A stretch of 64,000 nucleotides of DNA from Capsulimonadaceae bacterium (lineage in GTDB: Bacteria; Armatimonadota; Armatimonadia; Armatimonadales; Capsulimonadaceae), in contig JARLGU010000031.1 in NCBI GenBank assembly GCA_031292625.1, positions 186,001-250,000 of the forward strand, read 5' to 3'. The translations under genes were made by a program, and so were the position numbers. Shown piece by piece: positions 2,944-53,581 of this stretch; position 1 is the stretch's first letter, and each line of letters begins with the position of its first letter. A model generated the notes under the pieces. It worked only from the letters and a program-made list of their open reading frames with translations, was not told the DNA's origin and ran no database searches.

Positions 2944-5274
2944 TTAGCGGCCCACGGCGACGTTCCCTTCGGCGATCACCGAGTTGGTCGTCGCCGGGTC
3001 GTAGATGACCGATGCGCGCTGAGGGGGTGGACCTGACCATATGTTGCCGGCGGCGTCGACATTGCTCGATAGGTGGATGTCGATCGCGCCGGAGCGTGGA
3101 TGCGCAAATGCCGACGCGCGGGCGGCGACGATCTTGTTGCCGTCGATAATCACATTCTTGCAGGAGAACAGCTGGATCGCCGGACCGAGAGGGTTGTCGA
3201 TCTCGTTGGCATCGATCAAAATGTCGTGAAACAGCGGATACGCGTAGGGACCGCCGGGCAGGTCGGGTTTGACCTGGATGACCGTGCCGTCGCGAAATCG
3301 GCGGTTATTTACATCTACAAACCGGTTGTGCGCGATGACGATGTTTGCATCTCCGTGACCTTCCGTCCAACGCCGCTCAACCTCGGTCTGCAGCTGAATC
3401 CCGGTGCTTGCCGTGTGTTCGAAGACGCAGTTTTCGATCGTCGCGGACTGCGCGCCCAGCAGGATGCCCCGGCCGGTGTTGTCGTGGAAGCGGCTGTTGG
3501 CGATCCGGACATTCTTTGTTTCGTCCGTGTGGCTCCAAACGATCGTGTCGGGGCTGATCGTCGCCGGTAACGTGTCCGCGAACTGGACGATTGCGGCGTC
3601 GCCATCGCGCGATACGGTCTGCACCTTCGATACATACGGGTAGGGCGAGTAATCGACGTGGCAAAGCTCCAGCACGTCTCCGTCGCGAACCGGGAATTGC
3701 CAACCGGCGCGCGGAATTCGCAGCGTGTGGTCATCGACGCGCACGGCCCCGAGGGCGCAGTCGTCGTGTATGTTAATGCAGTCGTCGCCGCAATTCCCGA
3801 TCTCGCAGGAGTCCATCAGGAAGTCGCCGCGCGATTGATTGAAATGGAAACCGTCGGCTCCGATCGGCAAGGGCTGGGCGTCGGTTGCCTGCCCGCCGAT
3901 CCGGCAATTTCGCATGCTCCAATGGTTCATCGAACCGCCAACCACCCAGGCGATTCCGGGGATCGAATTGACGACGACATGATCGAACTGCATATCCTGA
4001 CAATCCGTGGTCAGGATGCCGGCCATGTCGTAATAATAGTGACGGATCCAACACGCGTCGCCCGCGCGCAGGGGCGTGGGTTGCTCGACTGTCACGCGCG
4101 CGCTGTTCGCGCTCAGTTTTTCGAACTGCACGATTTTCGGCTTATGCACTCCTTGCGGGCCAGGGAGGCCGGTCGGACGGAGGCTTTCTATGGGGTAGAT
4201 GCCCATCCAGGGGACAGATTTGAGCAGATCCGTCGCGGCGCTGTCCAGCGCCGGGAAAGTCATGACAACCTGCTGGCCCCGTTCGCTCACGGAGTCGATA
4301 TGGGCAAGAGTGGCAATCGGTTCGACTGCCCAATCCCAATCGATTGACAGGCCGGTGACGACGCATCGCTTGCAGTGGGAGATGCTGAGTGACGCAGCGC
4401 CAAACTTGTGGAGGGTCTGGAAAAGCAGCGTCGCGCCGCGCGCATCGATCGTGACGTCGCTCAGCCCGTCGACAACGAGCGGCGTCGCGCTGGCGAAGCG
4501 ATAGATGCCGGCGGGAATCACCAGGCGCGATGCGTTCTGGCTTCTGCACGCGGCGATTGCGTTCTTAAAGGCATCGACATTCGCGCGGGCTGTCTCCGCC
4601 GATGAAACGGCGTCGCCAGTTGTTGCGCGTAGGCCGAAGTCGGTTGCGGCGAGGGCGACGCCGGAGCCGGGTCGCGGAGATTCGACCGTCAGGCCGCCTG
4701 CGCCGGATGCGCGTGGGATTGCCTCCGTCCGCGGCTTCGCGGATGGCGCTTCCGCGTGCGTCGCCGGAACTTCCCTGGCGTCAGTGCCCGAATCGATGCG
4801 CAGAGCGGTAACGCGGATCGCGCCGGAGCGATTGATGCCTAGAGTGAGCGTCCAATCGTCCGCGCCGCTGAGGATGAGAGGGAGACGTTTACGGCCAGTT
4901 TCGCCAGCCTTTCCGGTCCACTTTGCCCACTGGTCAGCGCCTTCGCCCAAGGACTCGGAGCGAGCGAACATATAAAATTGGAAACCGTCCGCCGTCGGTG
5001 TCACGATTTGATAATCCAGCACGACGGTGTATTCCGCCGGGGCTTTAAGGATGCCGGATGGGAGGGTGATATAGCCGTTCCACTCGCCTCCTTGCGCGGC
5101 GGCAAGCAGCGTAGGGGGCGGACCAGCTTCAACGGTTGTCGTAAGCGGGCCGTTCTTTGAGGCTATCGATGCCGTGGGAGACCATTCGTACACGGTTGTG
5201 GCGATCGCTGGCGTAGCCATGAGGGCGATGAGCGCGCTAACAGCGGCGTACGAGAGCCTGTAAATCGATTTCAT
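2944..5274 (-). CDS. Secreted right-handed parallel beta-helix protein, probable glycoside hydrolase or lyase
   Basis: 776-residue exported protein with a signal peptide at residues 1-25 (ending ATPAIA). About residues 26-200 look like a carbohydrate-binding-type beta-sandwich followed by a linker. From about 205 onward there are repeated beta-helix coils (SRLVIPAGIYRF, then many rungs of the N..I.NN.F type). A cluster of acidic residues, GDDCINIHDDC near residue 490, and the later rung DNTGRGILLGAQS resemble the active-site faces of GH110-like alpha-galactosidases and pectin-active beta-helix enzymes. The exact activity cannot be fixed by reading. A LacI regulator lies immediately upstream on the same strand, 85 bp away, which supports a polysaccharide-degrading role. 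Confidence 0.75.
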   Translation of the reverse strand: MKSIYRLSYAAVSALIALMATPAIATTVYEWSPTASIASKNGPLTTTVEAGPPPTLLAAAQGGEWNGYITLPSGILKAPAEYTVVLDYQIVTPTADGFQFYMFARSESLGEGADQWAKWTGKAGETGRKRLPLILSGADDWTLTLGINRSGAIRVTALRIDSGTDAREVPATHAEAPSAKPRTEAIPRASGAGGLTVESPRPGSGVALAATDFGLRATTGDAVSSAETARANVDAFKNAIAACRSQNASRLVIPAGIYRFASATPLVVDGLSDVTIDARGATLLFQTLHKFGAASLSISHCKRCVVTGLSIDWDWAVEPIATLAHIDSVSERGQQVVMTFPALDSAATDLLKSVPWMGIYPIESLRPTGLPGPQGVHKPKIVQFEKLSANSARVTVEQPTPLRAGDACWIRHYYYDMAGILTTDCQDMQFDHVVVNSIPGIAWVVGGSMNHWSMRNCRIGGQATDAQPLPIGADGFHFNQSRGDFLMDSCEIGNCGDDCINIHDDCALGAVRVDDHTLRIPRAGWQFPVRDGDVLELCHVDYSPYPYVSKVQTVSRDGDAAIVQFADTLPATISPDTIVWSHTDETKNVRIANSRFHDNTGRGILLGAQSATIENCVFEHTASTGIQLQTEVERRWTEGHGDANIVIAHNRFVDVNNRRFRDGTVIQVKPDLPGGPYAYPLFHDILIDANEIDNPLGPAIQLFSCKNVIIDGNKIVAARASAFAHPRSGAIDIHLSSNVDAAGNIWSGPPPQRASVIYDPATTNSVIAEGNVAVGR

Positions 5275-5359
5275 GAAGTAATCTTTCCGGCGCCTGGATG
5301 CGCTTCCGGCAGCCCAAATGGAAGAGAGCAGGCAATTCCGCGAGCGCGATGCCTTTGGC

Positions 5360-6394
5360 CTAGCGTCGCGACGAGTCGCGGACCACCAAACCGGGCGTGA
5401 TTACGGCTCGCTGCAACGGGGCGGAAGGATCGTTGATTCGATTGACCAGAAACGTCCACGCCGATTCGCACATCGTTTCGATCGGCACCTTGACCGTGCT
5501 TACGGGGAGCACCTGATTCTCGGCATCCTCGATGCCGTCGCAGCCGACGATCGCGATGTCCCGTGGGACCCGCGCGCCCAAGTCGAGAGCCGCGCAAAGA
5601 CAGCCGATCGCGACATCGTCGTTCTCGCACAGGAGTCCGTCGGGCAGTCCGTGTTCTTTTGCATACGCCGTGAGCGTTTCGCGAGCGCAGACGCGCGTGT
5701 CGACGGCGGCCTCGATGAACTCCGCGCGCCGGCCCGCATCGCGCATGACGGACGAATAGGCTTCGGAACGCATGTCGAACGGGAGGCGGCTAATGTAGGC
5801 GATGCGCGTGCAGCCTCCATCGACGAGATGGCGGGCGGCTGCCAGCATCCCGGGGACCAGATCGAGCTTCACCGAGTCGGTCGTGTCGACGCTCCATGCT
5901 CCGATGTTCACGATTGGCATGCGCTCTCTCGGATTCACGGCGAGGTAGGCCGCGACGGGGCCTCCGACATCGCATGCGATGACGCCGTCCATGGGCCAGC
6001 TTATCAGTTTGGAGAAGTCCTGTTGCTCGACTTCGTCAAGCACGACATCCTCCGCAATGCAGTTGTAGCCGTATCTTCTGGCAATTCGCTGCAGAGAATG
6101 CTGAATACGACCATAATAAGGAGAGTATTCAACGTGAGTTCGCATCCAGGTCGCGACGAGGTTCGTGCGGGCGTTAACCAGCGCACGCGCCGCGTGGTTG
6201 GGCCGGTACCCGATCTGCGCGGCAATTGCGAGCACGCGATCACGCGTGGGCTGGGAAATGGATGCGGACAGGTGACCGTTAATTGCCTGTGACACGGTCC
6301 ATGCGGAGACATTAGCCTCCCGTGCGATGTCCATGATGGTCGGTCGGCGGTTCGTTGAACTCTGAATGGATTGCTTGTCGATGGGTTGCGTCAT
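5360..6394 (-). CDS. LacI-family transcriptional regulator
   Basis: 344-residue sugar-responsive repressor. The N-terminal helix-turn-helix and hinge run from about residue 17 to 75 (TIMDIAREANVSAWTVSQAING, then YRPNHAARAL). The periplasmic-binding-protein-like effector domain follows, with recognisable pieces such as MDGVIACDVGG and VGCDGIEDAENQVLPVSTVKVP. It is upstream of the beta-helix enzyme on the same strand and probably controls it. An 18-bp LacI-type dyad lies just upstream of this gene, suggesting autoregulation. The effector is not known. Confidence 0.9.
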   Translation of the reverse strand: MTQPIDKQSIQSSTNRRPTIMDIAREANVSAWTVSQAINGHLSASISQPTRDRVLAIAAQIGYRPNHAARALVNARTNLVATWMRTHVEYSPYYGRIQHSLQRIARRYGYNCIAEDVVLDEVEQQDFSKLISWPMDGVIACDVGGPVAAYLAVNPRERMPIVNIGAWSVDTTDSVKLDLVPGMLAAARHLVDGGCTRIAYISRLPFDMRSEAYSSVMRDAGRRAEFIEAAVDTRVCARETLTAYAKEHGLPDGLLCENDDVAIGCLCAALDLGARVPRDIAIVGCDGIEDAENQVLPVSTVKVPIETMCESAWTFLVNRINDPSAPLQRAVITPGLVVRDSSRR

Positions 6395-9083: not shown

Positions 9084-9111
9084 TTGCAGAGCTGGCGTGC
9101 AAAATCGAGAA

Positions 9112-9165
9112 GCCCTTTAGAACGGCTCCCGGCCACCGTGGCCGTTTTTTGAGAAAGGGTCGTCG
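9112..9165 (+). repeat. Partial R2 element with an intrinsic-terminator hairpin
   Basis: The 54 bp resemble the inner part of the full R2 elements at 23256, 36853 and 38453 (ACGGCTcccGGCC.CCGTGGCCGTTTTT then AAAGGG.CG.CGC). It contains the hairpin CGGCCA-CCG-TGGCCG followed by six Ts at 9145-9150. It could be a decayed element that now acts as a second terminator. No terminal repeats remain. Confidence 0.5.
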
Positions 9166-9207
9166 CCCCGATTGAGCGCGGACGCTCTGCGCACCGGGCG
9201 GCATCCG

Positions 9208-17390: not shown

Positions 17391-17514
17391 TGATTATCCT
17401 CGTAAGTGTTCTGAATTTGGCGTCAACGCGAAAGCGTTCGCCGCGCCGCGGCGCGGCAGATTATGGTGACAGGCCCGGCGCCGCCAAGATGGCGGGACAA
17501 GGCGAAACCACCAG

Positions 17515-17659
17515 AGCGTGTGTGATAAATGCAGACCGCTCGCGTCACGCGTTGAACGATGTGTCCGTGAAGAACGAGCCGCCCGCTCAAGCGGACGGAC
17601 CGCGCTTTCCAGCCACGGGGCTGCCCCCATGGCTACGGCGCGGAATTGTTCCACACGTT
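17515..17659 (-). repeat. Short R2 element (145 bp) with matching terminal repeats
   Basis: Left end AGCGTGTGTGATAAA and right end AATTGTTCCACACGTT match the terminal inverted repeats of the longer R2 elements. Read on the minus strand, its start (CGCCGT..CC then CCGTGGCTGGA.AG.GCGG) resembles the first 80 bp of the R2 copy at 38453. The inner half found in other copies is missing. It fills the gap between icd and sedolisin 2; the remaining bases there show nothing else. Confidence 0.6.
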
Positions 17660-17709
17660 CATAGAGTCGAAACGCAACTTTGTGGCCATGCGTTCCTCGC
17701 ATGCCGCAT

Positions 17710-23223: not shown

Positions 23224-23255
23224 TTTCGACCGCCTTTCACTTCGCCGTTACTGAA

Positions 23256-23510
23256 AGCGTGTGTAATAAACTGGCGTATTGCGAGAAAGATTCAGGACGG
23301 CTCATGCCGCCGGGGCATTCTTTCGCCCGCGCCTCGTTCACGGCGGTGACTGACGTTGCCTCGTCAACACGCGAACGGCCTTTTGCCGCAGCCGTCCGAT
23401 CCCAGCGCACATCGTGAAGCAGTGAAAGCGATGCGCCGCCCTTTAATCAAAAACGGCCACGGCGGCCGCAGAAGCCGTCTTACAGAACCTTTCGATTTTC
23501 TACACACGCT
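23256..23510 (-). repeat. R2 element copy a, MITE-like, 255 bp with 10-bp terminal inverted repeats
   Basis: Bounded by AGCGTGTGTA (23256-23265) and TACACACGCT (23501-23510), an exact inverted pair, with CTGA close to each outer edge. Read on the minus strand it matches copies at 36853 and 38453 over most of its length, including CACTGCTTCACGATG.GCGC and GGCAAAAGGCCGT.CGC. It carries the hairpin CGGCC-GCCGT-GGCCG plus TTTTT, a terminator shape. It has no conserved open frame. The rest of the gap to 23682 shows nothing. Confidence 0.8.
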
Positions 23511-23682
23511 CTGAGCAAAGTTGAGTACACTGACCTCCATTATACCAGAGCCGCGCTCCGAATTGGCATGCGTCAATCGGCCGAAAAGGGGATATTCGGT
23601 TTGCTGCGCAAGAGAGCCTGCCGGTCCCATCGCTGATTTGCGGCACGGCAGGCCCTCAAAGGGCTCCATTGCTCTTCGCAGG

Positions 23683-36669: not shown

Positions 36670-36852
36670 ATTTCAAGCCTCACGCGATGACCGCCTCATC
36701 GCAGCCCCGCACTCCAAGTATACCATAGGTATTTTGACCGTGCCAGATCATCAAACTCTATTTTGATTTCGTTCCAATTCGTTGTCGAGTGAAACAATAC
36801 GAGTTCGTTCGATGGCAAACGTTGCGGCGAAGTTCCTTTCGTTGATCGGTTT

Positions 36853-37103
36853 AGCGTGTGTATATAAATTGAAACGCCTTGTAAGACGGCTTCTCGGCCG
36901 TCGTGGCCGCTTTTGAAAAGGGCAGTTACTGCGTTTCACTGCTTCACGATGTGCGCAGGGATCGTACGCTGGCGGCAAAAGGCCGTACGCATGTTGACGC
37001 GGCATCGTCAATCACCGCCGTGAACGAGGCGCGGGCCAAAAAAACGTCCCGGCGGCACGAGGCGTCCTGAATCCTTCTCGCAACGCTGATTGATTACACA
37101 CCA
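36853..37103 (+). repeat. R2 element copy b, MITE-like, about 251 bp
   Basis: Begins AGCGTGTGTA (36853-36862) and ends near TTACACACCA, touching the stop codon of waaA at 37106. It follows copies a and c block by block: a CGGCC..CGTGGCCG hairpin, CACTGCTTCACGATGTGCGC, GGCAAAAGGCCGTACGC, then CCGTGAACGAGGCGCGGGC. It has the same orientation as copy c on the other side of waaA. The stretch 36703-36852 shows only a small ATACC/GGTAT dyad. Confidence 0.8.
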
Positions 37104-37105
37104 AC

Positions 37106-38437
37106 TCAGGGATTGGCCTTCTTGCTCGCGTCCCAAACGCGATCAATCGTTTCCACGGCTGTAGCCGTCGCGCCCTTGCTTTTCTCGAAGAGCTCCTGCG
37201 CGGCTTTCCCCATCTTCTGAGCGCGCTCCGCATCCGATAGGAGCCCTGAGAACGCTTCAGCCATTTCTTCCGCGCGCGCTGAAACATCCCCCGGCGCAGT
37301 CAATCGGACGATCGCATCGGCTTCGAGAAATTCGTCCACCATATTGCCGAAGTTTTCCATGTGAGGCCCCACGACGATCGGCTTGCCGAACAGGGCCGGT
37401 TCCATGATGCTGTGCCCGCCGGCCGGCGCGATCGTTCCGCCGACAAACGCAACATCCCCGAACTGGTACGCCGCCGCAAGCTCGCCATGCGTATCGAGCA
37501 GCAGCACCTCGCTCCCGGACACCGGAGCGCCGCTTGAGCGCTGCGACACGCTGAAGCCATGCGCCCGGGCGAGCGCCGCGACGGATGCCGCCCGTTCGAT
37601 GTGGCGAGGGGCAAGGAGCAGACGCACGCCCGATGTCTCCGGCGCTTTGCGCAGGATCCGCAGCGCGGCCAGTACGACCTCATCCTCGCCCTCGTGCGTG
37701 CTTCCCGCGACGATCAGGGGGCCTTGAGCGCTCGTGATCCCAAGCGCCTCGTCCAGCGCGTCGCGCTGAGCGGATGAAATGTCCTTTGCCGCTACATCGT
37801 ACTTCATGTTGCCGCTTACGCGCAGGCGGCCGCCAGGCGCGCCCATCAGGCGGAAACGGTCGCCGTCGACCTGGTCCTTCACGAGAATCGCGTCGTAGCA
37901 TGCCAGCACGGGAGCGAGCAAGGGAGCGGCGTAGCGGTACCAACGAAACGATTTGGCGGAAATGCGGCCATTGACCAGCACCACCGGAATATTGCGCCGC
38001 CGCGCTTCCCGCAGCGTGTTCGGCCAAATCTCCGTATCTACGATCACGAGGATCGACGGCTGAACAAAATCGAGTACCCTGCGGACGACCCCGGGAAGGT
38101 CGATCGGGAAATAGAAAATCCCATCGCCGGCATACTTCGCGTATCGCTCGCGCGCGACATTTTGGCCGCCCGCCGTGATGGTCGAGATCACCAGTCGCGC
38201 ATCGGGATACCGCGTTGTCAGAGCCTCGACAAGCGGCTGAATGGACAGCGTCTCGCCCACCGAACAGGCGTGAATCCAGATCGTCTCGCGCCCGTCCCCG
38301 CGCAGCGCATCCGGCAGCCGTCCCGCTCTTTGAGCCAGTCCAGGAAGCGCTTTCTTCTTGAACACGGCGCGCCACCAAAGCACGGGCGCCATTGCCACAA
38401 GCCAAATCGTTAGGAGAATAGTGTAGAGCAGATACAT
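37106..38437 (-). CDS. waaA: 3-deoxy-D-manno-octulosonic acid (Kdo) transferase
   Basis: 443-residue inner-membrane GT30 glycosyltransferase that adds Kdo from CMP-Kdo to lipid A. The N-terminal anchor helix (YLLYTILLTIWLVAMAPVLWW) is followed by the GT-B fold with the signatures TIWIHACSVGETLSIQPLVEAL (about 53-74), DTEIWPNTLREARRRNIPVVLVNGR (about 134-158), SGNMKYD and the C-terminal nucleotide-binding GGHSIMEPALFGKPIVVGPH. It partners functionally with kdsB. It is bracketed by two R2 elements in direct orientation, 2 bp after the stop and 15 bp before the start, and has a weak ribosome site. Confidence 0.95.
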   Translation of the reverse strand: MYLLYTILLTIWLVAMAPVLWWRAVFKKKALPGLAQRAGRLPDALRGDGRETIWIHACSVGETLSIQPLVEALTTRYPDARLVISTITAGGQNVARERYAKYAGDGIFYFPIDLPGVVRRVLDFVQPSILVIVDTEIWPNTLREARRRNIPVVLVNGRISAKSFRWYRYAAPLLAPVLACYDAILVKDQVDGDRFRLMGAPGGRLRVSGNMKYDVAAKDISSAQRDALDEALGITSAQGPLIVAGSTHEGEDEVVLAALRILRKAPETSGVRLLLAPRHIERAASVAALARAHGFSVSQRSSGAPVSGSEVLLLDTHGELAAAYQFGDVAFVGGTIAPAGGHSIMEPALFGKPIVVGPHMENFGNMVDEFLEADAIVRLTAPGDVSARAEEMAEAFSGLLSDAERAQKMGKAAQELFEKSKGATATAVETIDRVWDASKKANP

Positions 38438-38452: not shown

Positions 38453-38750
38453 GCGCCTGTGTAATAATCTCGCGCCGTTGCCCACGGGGTCGATCCCGTG
38501 GCTGGAGAGTGCGGCAAGCCCGCTAAAGCCGGCTCCGCGGCCGCCGTGGCCGTTTTTGACAAAGATGCGTCGCAGCGCTTTCACTGCTTCACGATGCGCG
38601 CTGGGATCGGACGCTTGCGACAAAAGGCCGTACGCGTGTCGACGAGGCATCGTCAATCACCGTCGTGAACGAGGCGCGGGCAGAAAATCGCCCCGGCGGC
38701 ACGAGCCGTCCTGAATCTTGTCCTCGGTACGCCCAATAACGGCACACGCT
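38453..38750 (+). repeat. R2 element copy c, about 298 bp, upstream of waaA
   Basis: Starts AGCGCCTGTGTAATAA and ends GGCACACGCT. Its right two thirds match copies a and b; its left 80 bp instead match the short element at 17515-17659, so it is a composite of two modules. It contains the hairpin CGGCCGCCGTGGCCG followed by TTTTT. Transcription of waaA must start inside or at the edge of this element. From 38751 to 38903 I see no gene or other repeat. Confidence 0.8.
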
Positions 38751-52890: not shown

Positions 52891-53264
52891 TGTGGCCGCC
52901 CAGGAACGAGTCCCGCGCGGCTGGCGTTAGGAAAGGTCATCGAGGGGAGATGAACGCAAGCGGCTCGGCGTGGTCGCCGCCGGCCGCAAATGCGCGGTTT
53001 ACCGCGCGAGGAGGCTAAGGCTGCGAGCAACCCGAGACGATGCGAAGCAAGCGCATCCTCGGTGACCACTGGTACTGTGACTAGGGTCGGTTGACATTTC
53101 TTCTTTTCGCGGAGCATCGTCTAAAAAAACATCTGCCGTGATGCCGCCTGCGAACGAGCCTATTATACCGGACGTTCTCTTGAAAGGCAACCGCCGCGCA
53201 CAAGAGTTCGATGCGAATGCGATTCGTCGATTGCGGACCCTATTGCGCCAGGCCAAGCCTGGCG
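52891..53264. other. Non-coding gap upstream of the NRAMP gene
   Basis: 374 bp without a convincing gene. It contains a 9-bp hairpin, GCGCCAGGC-CAA-GCCTGGCGC, at 53245-53265 next to the start of R2 copy e, and TTGACA at 53091-53096 with no matching -10. Nothing else is seen. Confidence 0.4.
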
Positions 53265-53530
53265 CACTGTGTGATATATCAAATCGCCTCGTACTACGGC
53301 TCCTCCCTGCAATAGAGCAAAGAGTTCGGAGCCTTCTCTGGCCGGCCCTTCGGCGCTCTCAGGGCGATGAGCTTGTCGAACCGGCGGGCCATATTTCGTG
53401 CGCTGAAGACGGCGATTTTGTCGCAAGCAGCTGGCTGTGATTAACCTGGAGCGAAGCGACCACGAAAAAATACCCCGGCGGCATGAACCGTCTTGAATCC
53501 GTCTCGCAACGCCGATTAATGGCACACCTT
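53265..53530 (+). repeat. R2 element copy e, divergent, about 266 bp
   Basis: The right third (ACCCCGGCGGCATGAACCGTC then CTCGCAACGCCGATTAATGGCACACC) matches copies a-c. The left end CACTGTGTGATATA resembles their left terminal repeat. The middle is different and carries the pairing block GGCCCTTCGGCGCTCTCAGGGC. It appears to be an older or recombined element. The gap continues to the araA leader at 53732. Confidence 0.55.
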
Positions 53531-53581
53531 CTTTGAGATCGCCATGAGCCGTTTACGGATTATAGGGCCGGGCAAAAGAAT

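Follow-up and report, generated by a model that had tools for sequence, protein, structure and literature searches.

The window analysed here, a 64,000-nucleotide stretch of the genome of a Capsulimonadaceae bacterium, contains three clear copies of a short repeat, R2, together with one R2 fragment and two relatives that have the same ends and other cores (Table 1). The initial annotation had delimited copy a by a 10-bp inverted pair at 23256-23265 and 23501-23510. Those letters are exactly as written, but they are not the boundary of the element: alignment of copies places the longer sequence GAG(C/T)GTGTG(T/C)AA at both termini, and in copy a the first G of the end is mutated to A. The two arms are imperfect inverted copies of each other over about 70 bp.

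BLAST of a 255-bp copy a query against the window returned matches at 36853-37101 (83%, E 2e-61), 38526-38750 (83%, E 6e-58), 53449-53527 (77%, E 6e-12), and 9090-9173 (71%, E 4e-8), the first two covering almost the full length, bearing out the claim that copies occur in both orientations. Of the six positions originally listed as copies or parts of copies, 23256, 36853, and 38453 belong to R2, although the last two are end positions of reverse-oriented copies rather than starts, and 9112 stands as a fragment. The remaining two have R2-kind ends and are not R2 proper: at 17515 these enclose a different core, ~147 bp in extent, and at 53265 the R2 ends and hairpin module accompany a second core type, which we call R2b. 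The R2 10-mer alone is barely above chance in the window (6 matches at ≤1 mismatch versus 1.8 expected), whereas chance similarity as the origin of the family is ruled out by the full-length match (E 2e-61) and by the 43 copies found per 1.21 Mb.

In copy c, the final ~70 bp of the right arm has been swapped for a different sequence containing a GCCACGGGG..CCCCGTGGC palindrome, and the TNA trinucleotides flanking the third core type on its two sides do not match. Beside copy b, the adjoining TNA (TCA on the plus strand, 37106-37108) provides the stop codon for a Kdo-transferase-like gene at 37106-38437 (Pfam PF04413), so that insertion preserved the end of the reading frame. Short palindromes (TGCGCCAGGCCAAGCCTGGCGCA; GCCACGGGGTCGATCCCGTGGC) abut or replace some R2 and R2b ends, at 53240-53270 and 38480-38505 in the window and at the right end of locus L021, as if yet another small repeat had been inserted there.

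Table 1. R2 and related features in the window, and ends of an unrelated multicopy IS elsewhere in the assembly (G000)
Feature	Position	Strand	Remark
R2 right-arm fragment	about 9090-9173	-	
Third core type	about 17514-17660	+	R2-kind ends (GAGCGTGTGTGATAAA ... CCACACGTTC)
Left target-site duplication, TGA	23252-23254	.	Basis: sequence
R2 copy a	23255-23511	+	Complete 257-bp element, single core unit
Left-arm hairpin, ATGCC-GCCGG-GGCAT then TCTTTC	23304-23318	+	Terminator-like for transcription arriving from left
Right-arm hairpin, CGGCC-GCCGT-GGCCG then TTTTT	23453-23471	-	Terminator-like for transcription arriving from right
Right target-site duplication, TGA	23512-23514	.	Basis: sequence
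R2 copy b	36852-37105	-	
R2 copy c	38455-38750	-	R2-like stretch 38526-38750
R2b element	53266-53531	-	Ends and hairpin module as R2, other core
Multicopy IS, left ends	C11:1-178, C14 end, C21:1-189, C32 end, C46 end, C52 end, C65:1-138		
Multicopy IS, right ends	C31, C38, C47 ends		

Copy number, cores and range

The genome comprises 5.77 Mb in 65 contigs, with a completeness of 96.4%. A profile search of 1.21 Mb (three whole contigs plus a 40-kb piece that was picked for having R2 and contributes 3 of the 43) recovered 43 R2 elements, and we estimate, given even density, a genome total of about 200 copies. Across the whole genome, copy a gave at least 45 matches with 40 of 254 candidates scored, TNAGAGCGTGTGNAA gave 82 matches versus 6 for its reversed control, and the hairpin module gave 169 versus 0. 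R2 elements are mostly 246-258 bp long, and a consensus of 256 bp cannot accommodate a transposase, in agreement with the lack of coding capacity first noted for copy a.

Longer elements, up to 710 bp, carry tandem cores with a period of 93 bp, which reach 5.8 copies in locus L075, and the palindrome CCGGTCACGGACCGG lies between tandem core units. Of the 77 complete copies, 57 contain a single unit, 11 contain two, five contain three, three contain four, and one contains six; the 93-bp unit has thus undergone expansion in some copies, to a maximum of six. An R2b query returned 51 genome matches, many covering only the module common with R2, and relatives of the third core type occur at C41:249042-249211 (66%) and near 93.3 kb of C34 (61%). 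Several cores behind one type of end are the usual picture for MITEs mobilized by one transposase.

R2 matched none of 100 relatives and none of 290 other genomes of the same phylum, a set that overlaps the 100, and a search of 60 relatives for the exact end motif found none. Furthermore, the exact hairpin core matched neither named species genomes nor viral contigs, R2 had no match in plasmids, and an Rfam search gave no known RNA family at R2. Among named genomes, the top match to one window protein came from Capsulimonas sp. (56% identity), which on that single protein makes a Capsulimonadaceae-like member of the Armatimonadota the probable host. A lack of further copies genome-wide, or conserved presence at orthologous places in distant relatives, had been proposed as evidence against a mobile family; many further copies were found, and R2 is absent from all relatives tested. 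Most copies differ from the consensus by 4-20% and are therefore not recent. The R2 family is real and is new in both sequence and host; as a kind of MITE it is ordinary, and it is unusually abundant.

Ends, target duplication and empty sites

We scored target-site duplication in 57 R2 copies with both ends recognizable. TNA adjoins the element on the left in 35 and on the right in 40; it is present on both sides in 27, and the middle base agrees in 23 of these versus 7.5 expected (the highest value in 20,000 shuffles was 16). Since the middle bases match directly (G-G, T-T, A-A, C-C), TNA is a duplication and not a further part of the terminal inverted repeat (TIR). C precedes the TNA in 37/57 copies and G follows it in 37/57, which gives C|TNA|G as the R2 target.

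Several R2 copies interrupt a different dispersed repeat, at ...CCTCATCTTCTC|TTA|CAAAGCG.... Uninterrupted, this host repeat has a single TTA (loci L253 and L261, and also L239 with one nearby change); where it bears R2, TNA stands on both sides of the element (L036, L011, and C38 near 206 kb, with TAA in C38). All R2 copies within the host repeat point the same way, so a single insertion may be ancestral to some of them; even so, these sites require at least one R2 insertion with TNA duplication. The host repeat (GCGGCTTGCCAACAGGCTGAGTGTTAAGCGG ... GGCCAGCCCGGCCATGGAGGGCATCTTAATCCTCATCTTCTCTTACAAAGCG), which itself has palindromes, was seen at L253:1504-1600, L261, L239, L220, and C60:145697-145770.

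R2 is thus short, multicopy, and dispersed, with TIRs, a 3-bp TNA duplication, paralogous empty sites, and no capacity to encode a transposase. Together with its absence from the tested relatives, these properties sustain the original proposal of a non-autonomous MITE. REP/BIME or ERIC-like repeats, in contrast, are marked by the absence of target duplication.

Transposase source and described relatives

Very probably, R2 elements are MITEs that an IS5/PHIS-type DDE transposase mobilized in trans, and their inward hairpins would keep the cost of insertion between genes low. Such an enzyme would insert R2 at C|TNA|G and duplicate the TNA; its source, missing from the assembly, may have been lost or may be an unassembled multicopy IS. 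The IS5/PHIS assignment is our best guess from target and ends: NuwaII elements of PHIS, a eukaryotic relative of IS5, likewise use C|TNA|G as target and duplicate 3 bp (PMC4482050), and the IS5-family elements and MITEs ISPg1, ISPg4, ISNme1, and BrickBuilt have GAG-starting 12-bp TIRs (PMC4596501). NuwaII is itself eukaryotic, and R2 offers no coding sequence for comparison. These same parallels argue against a transposase from another TIR-dependent, TNA-duplicating family, an unlikely alternative that the absence of IS5-type domains from the assembly would nevertheless favor.

A transposase gene with R2 ends had been named as the expected support for mobility. None was found in the assembly, where the IS5-type families looked for are either absent or lack these ends. 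Pfam searches of the genome gave no match to PF13340 (DUF4096), PF13586 (DDE_Tnp_1_2), or PF13359 (DDE_Tnp_4), and six PF01609 (DDE_Tnp_1) genes, tried as R2 partners, were rejected because their loci have no R2 ends. No autonomous element with GAG(C/T)GTGTGTAA ends was found in the assembly, which misses recent multicopy IS. TIR pairs 60-3500 bp apart in the 1.21 Mb included no convincing autonomous element; one pair, of 1066 bp, has TGA on both sides but poor ends. The autonomous same-ended partner that is usual, though not required, for a MITE is accordingly not seen in this assembly.

Contig ends C65, C14, and C46, where R2b ends run into a shared 130-bp tail, were also considered as an autonomous partner and rejected. 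At C11, C21, C32, and C52, however, this tail is preceded by unrelated sequence, and at C31, C38, and C47 R2b picks up again beyond another end; thus, a different IS has inserted into R2b. This multicopy IS is visible only at ten contig ends (left near GCTCTGGAAATAGAACGCACTC, right near GAAGCGCCTAAGGATTC; Table 1), and its gene is missing from the assembly. Its copies are nearly identical over about 140 bp, which we take as recent, have no obvious TIRs, and directly follow hairpin-plus-T-run sequences, in several cases within R2b. The R2 family also helps explain where the assembly breaks.

With this unrelated multicopy IS represented solely by its ends, at contig termini, the assembly is unable to reveal recent IS copies. 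Together with a completeness short of 100%, this leaves room for a variant of our preferred reading, possible though doubtful, in which the autonomous partner persists as a recent, near-identical multicopy IS unplaced by short-read assembly and R2 may still be mobile. The examined TNAGAGCGTGTGNAA matches, contig ends included, lead however to R2, R2b, other short elements, or chance and to no gene, and the divergence of most R2 copies also weighs against a surviving partner.

Among described systems, the closest relative of R2 in kind, with no sequence relation claimed, is BrickBuilt of Porphyromonas gingivalis. Like R2, BrickBuilt and MITE464/PgRS are non-coding intergenic MITEs whose 12-bp, IS5-like TIRs begin with GAG and whose core, set between a leader and a tail, consists of variable-number tandem repeats (PMC4596501). 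BrickBuilt differs in having 19 copies versus about 200, units of 23 or 41 bp versus 93 bp, inconsistent target-site duplications versus a clear TNA, and known parent IS5 elements in P. gingivalis, whereas none was found for R2 (PMC4596501). ATR (AT-rich repeat) of Neisseria meningitidis, an IS5-derived MITE with a GAG-starting TIR and the proposed offspring of ISNme1 (cited in PMC4596501), is of different sequence, with 19 copies, and AT-rich, whereas R2 is G+C-rich with inward hairpins.

What distinguishes R2 is its copy number, its precise target, its tandem-repeat core, and the inward hairpins at both ends. The IS1031-like group of the IS5 family likewise combines GAG-starting TIRs with a 3-bp TNA duplication; R2 differs in having no transposase gene, and the genome yielded no such gene between R2 ends.

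Inward hairpins and genomic placement

A MITE of ~200 copies in one bacterium of a poorly sampled phylum provides a concrete case for asking whether bacterial MITEs shape transcription-unit boundaries. In each R2 arm, a hairpin precedes an inward-reading T-run, which makes the element terminator-like in both directions, and both signals are intact in 44/67 copies. Conservation within R2 is highest in the left hairpin region (93% mean identity). In the right-arm stem, standard pairs occur in 99-101 of 103 rows at five positions, and about a dozen stems show double changes from CGGCC/GGCCG to TTGCC/GGCAA; this covariation could partly reflect exchange between the two arms. A terminator scanner found matches among R2 copies, although the left-arm T-run of copy a is too weak for it. 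Folding of the consensus was more stable than that of shuffled sequences (z -4.3), as expected anyway for an element with inverted arms, and RNAalifold on whole copies preferred arm-to-arm pairing with almost no covariation support. Judged from sequence, it is plausible that the hairpins act as transcription terminators in the cell. An R2 copy would then stop transcription arriving from either side, which would make insertions between genes low in cost.

Placement was evaluated with a simple hexamer-based gene caller on copies that are not fully independent. Within the 1.21 Mb, 42 of 43 R2 copies lie outside predicted genes, though 84.5% of the sequence is called coding. Against expectations weighted by the length of intergenic sequence, 12 copies fall in convergent gaps versus 4.8 (P 0.0016), 21 in tandem gaps versus 26.8, and 9 in divergent gaps versus 10.3. 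The convergent excess fits the low cost of a two-way stop; it is also consistent with tolerance of insertion at gene 3' ends or with a benefit from termination.

These features, namely hairpins in both arms, the convergent excess, and an almost exclusively intergenic distribution, could also be read as those of a host-maintained structural repeat (a dispersed two-way terminator or REP/ERIC-like) propagated mainly through recombination, or through copying at the 3' ends of genes, rather than by a transposase. The many incomplete or recombined R2 copies, the tandem dimers, and the failure to find a transposase point the same way. We regard this as very improbable, however, because precise ends, direct TNA duplication, and single-TNA empty sites are the mark of transposase-made integration; in addition, convergent gaps account for only 12 of the 42 intergenic copies, and 9 occupy divergent gaps, where termination brings little benefit. 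Transposition of a MITE in trans remains our preferred account. A more speculative extension, to which we give rather low credence, is that a transposase-driven family has spread ~200 two-way terminators whose hairpins are kept by selection, which also favors convergent gaps, so that R2 would be a domesticated insulator of transcription units.

The sole genic copy among the 43 is a four-unit R2 at C41:5088-5599 inside a predicted gene (3234-5669, plus strand), where it may extend or truncate the encoded protein. Elsewhere, an R2 copy stands beside a 5S rRNA gene, confirmed by Rfam, at two loci with matching flanks (L050 and L051, the starts of contigs C47 and C48).
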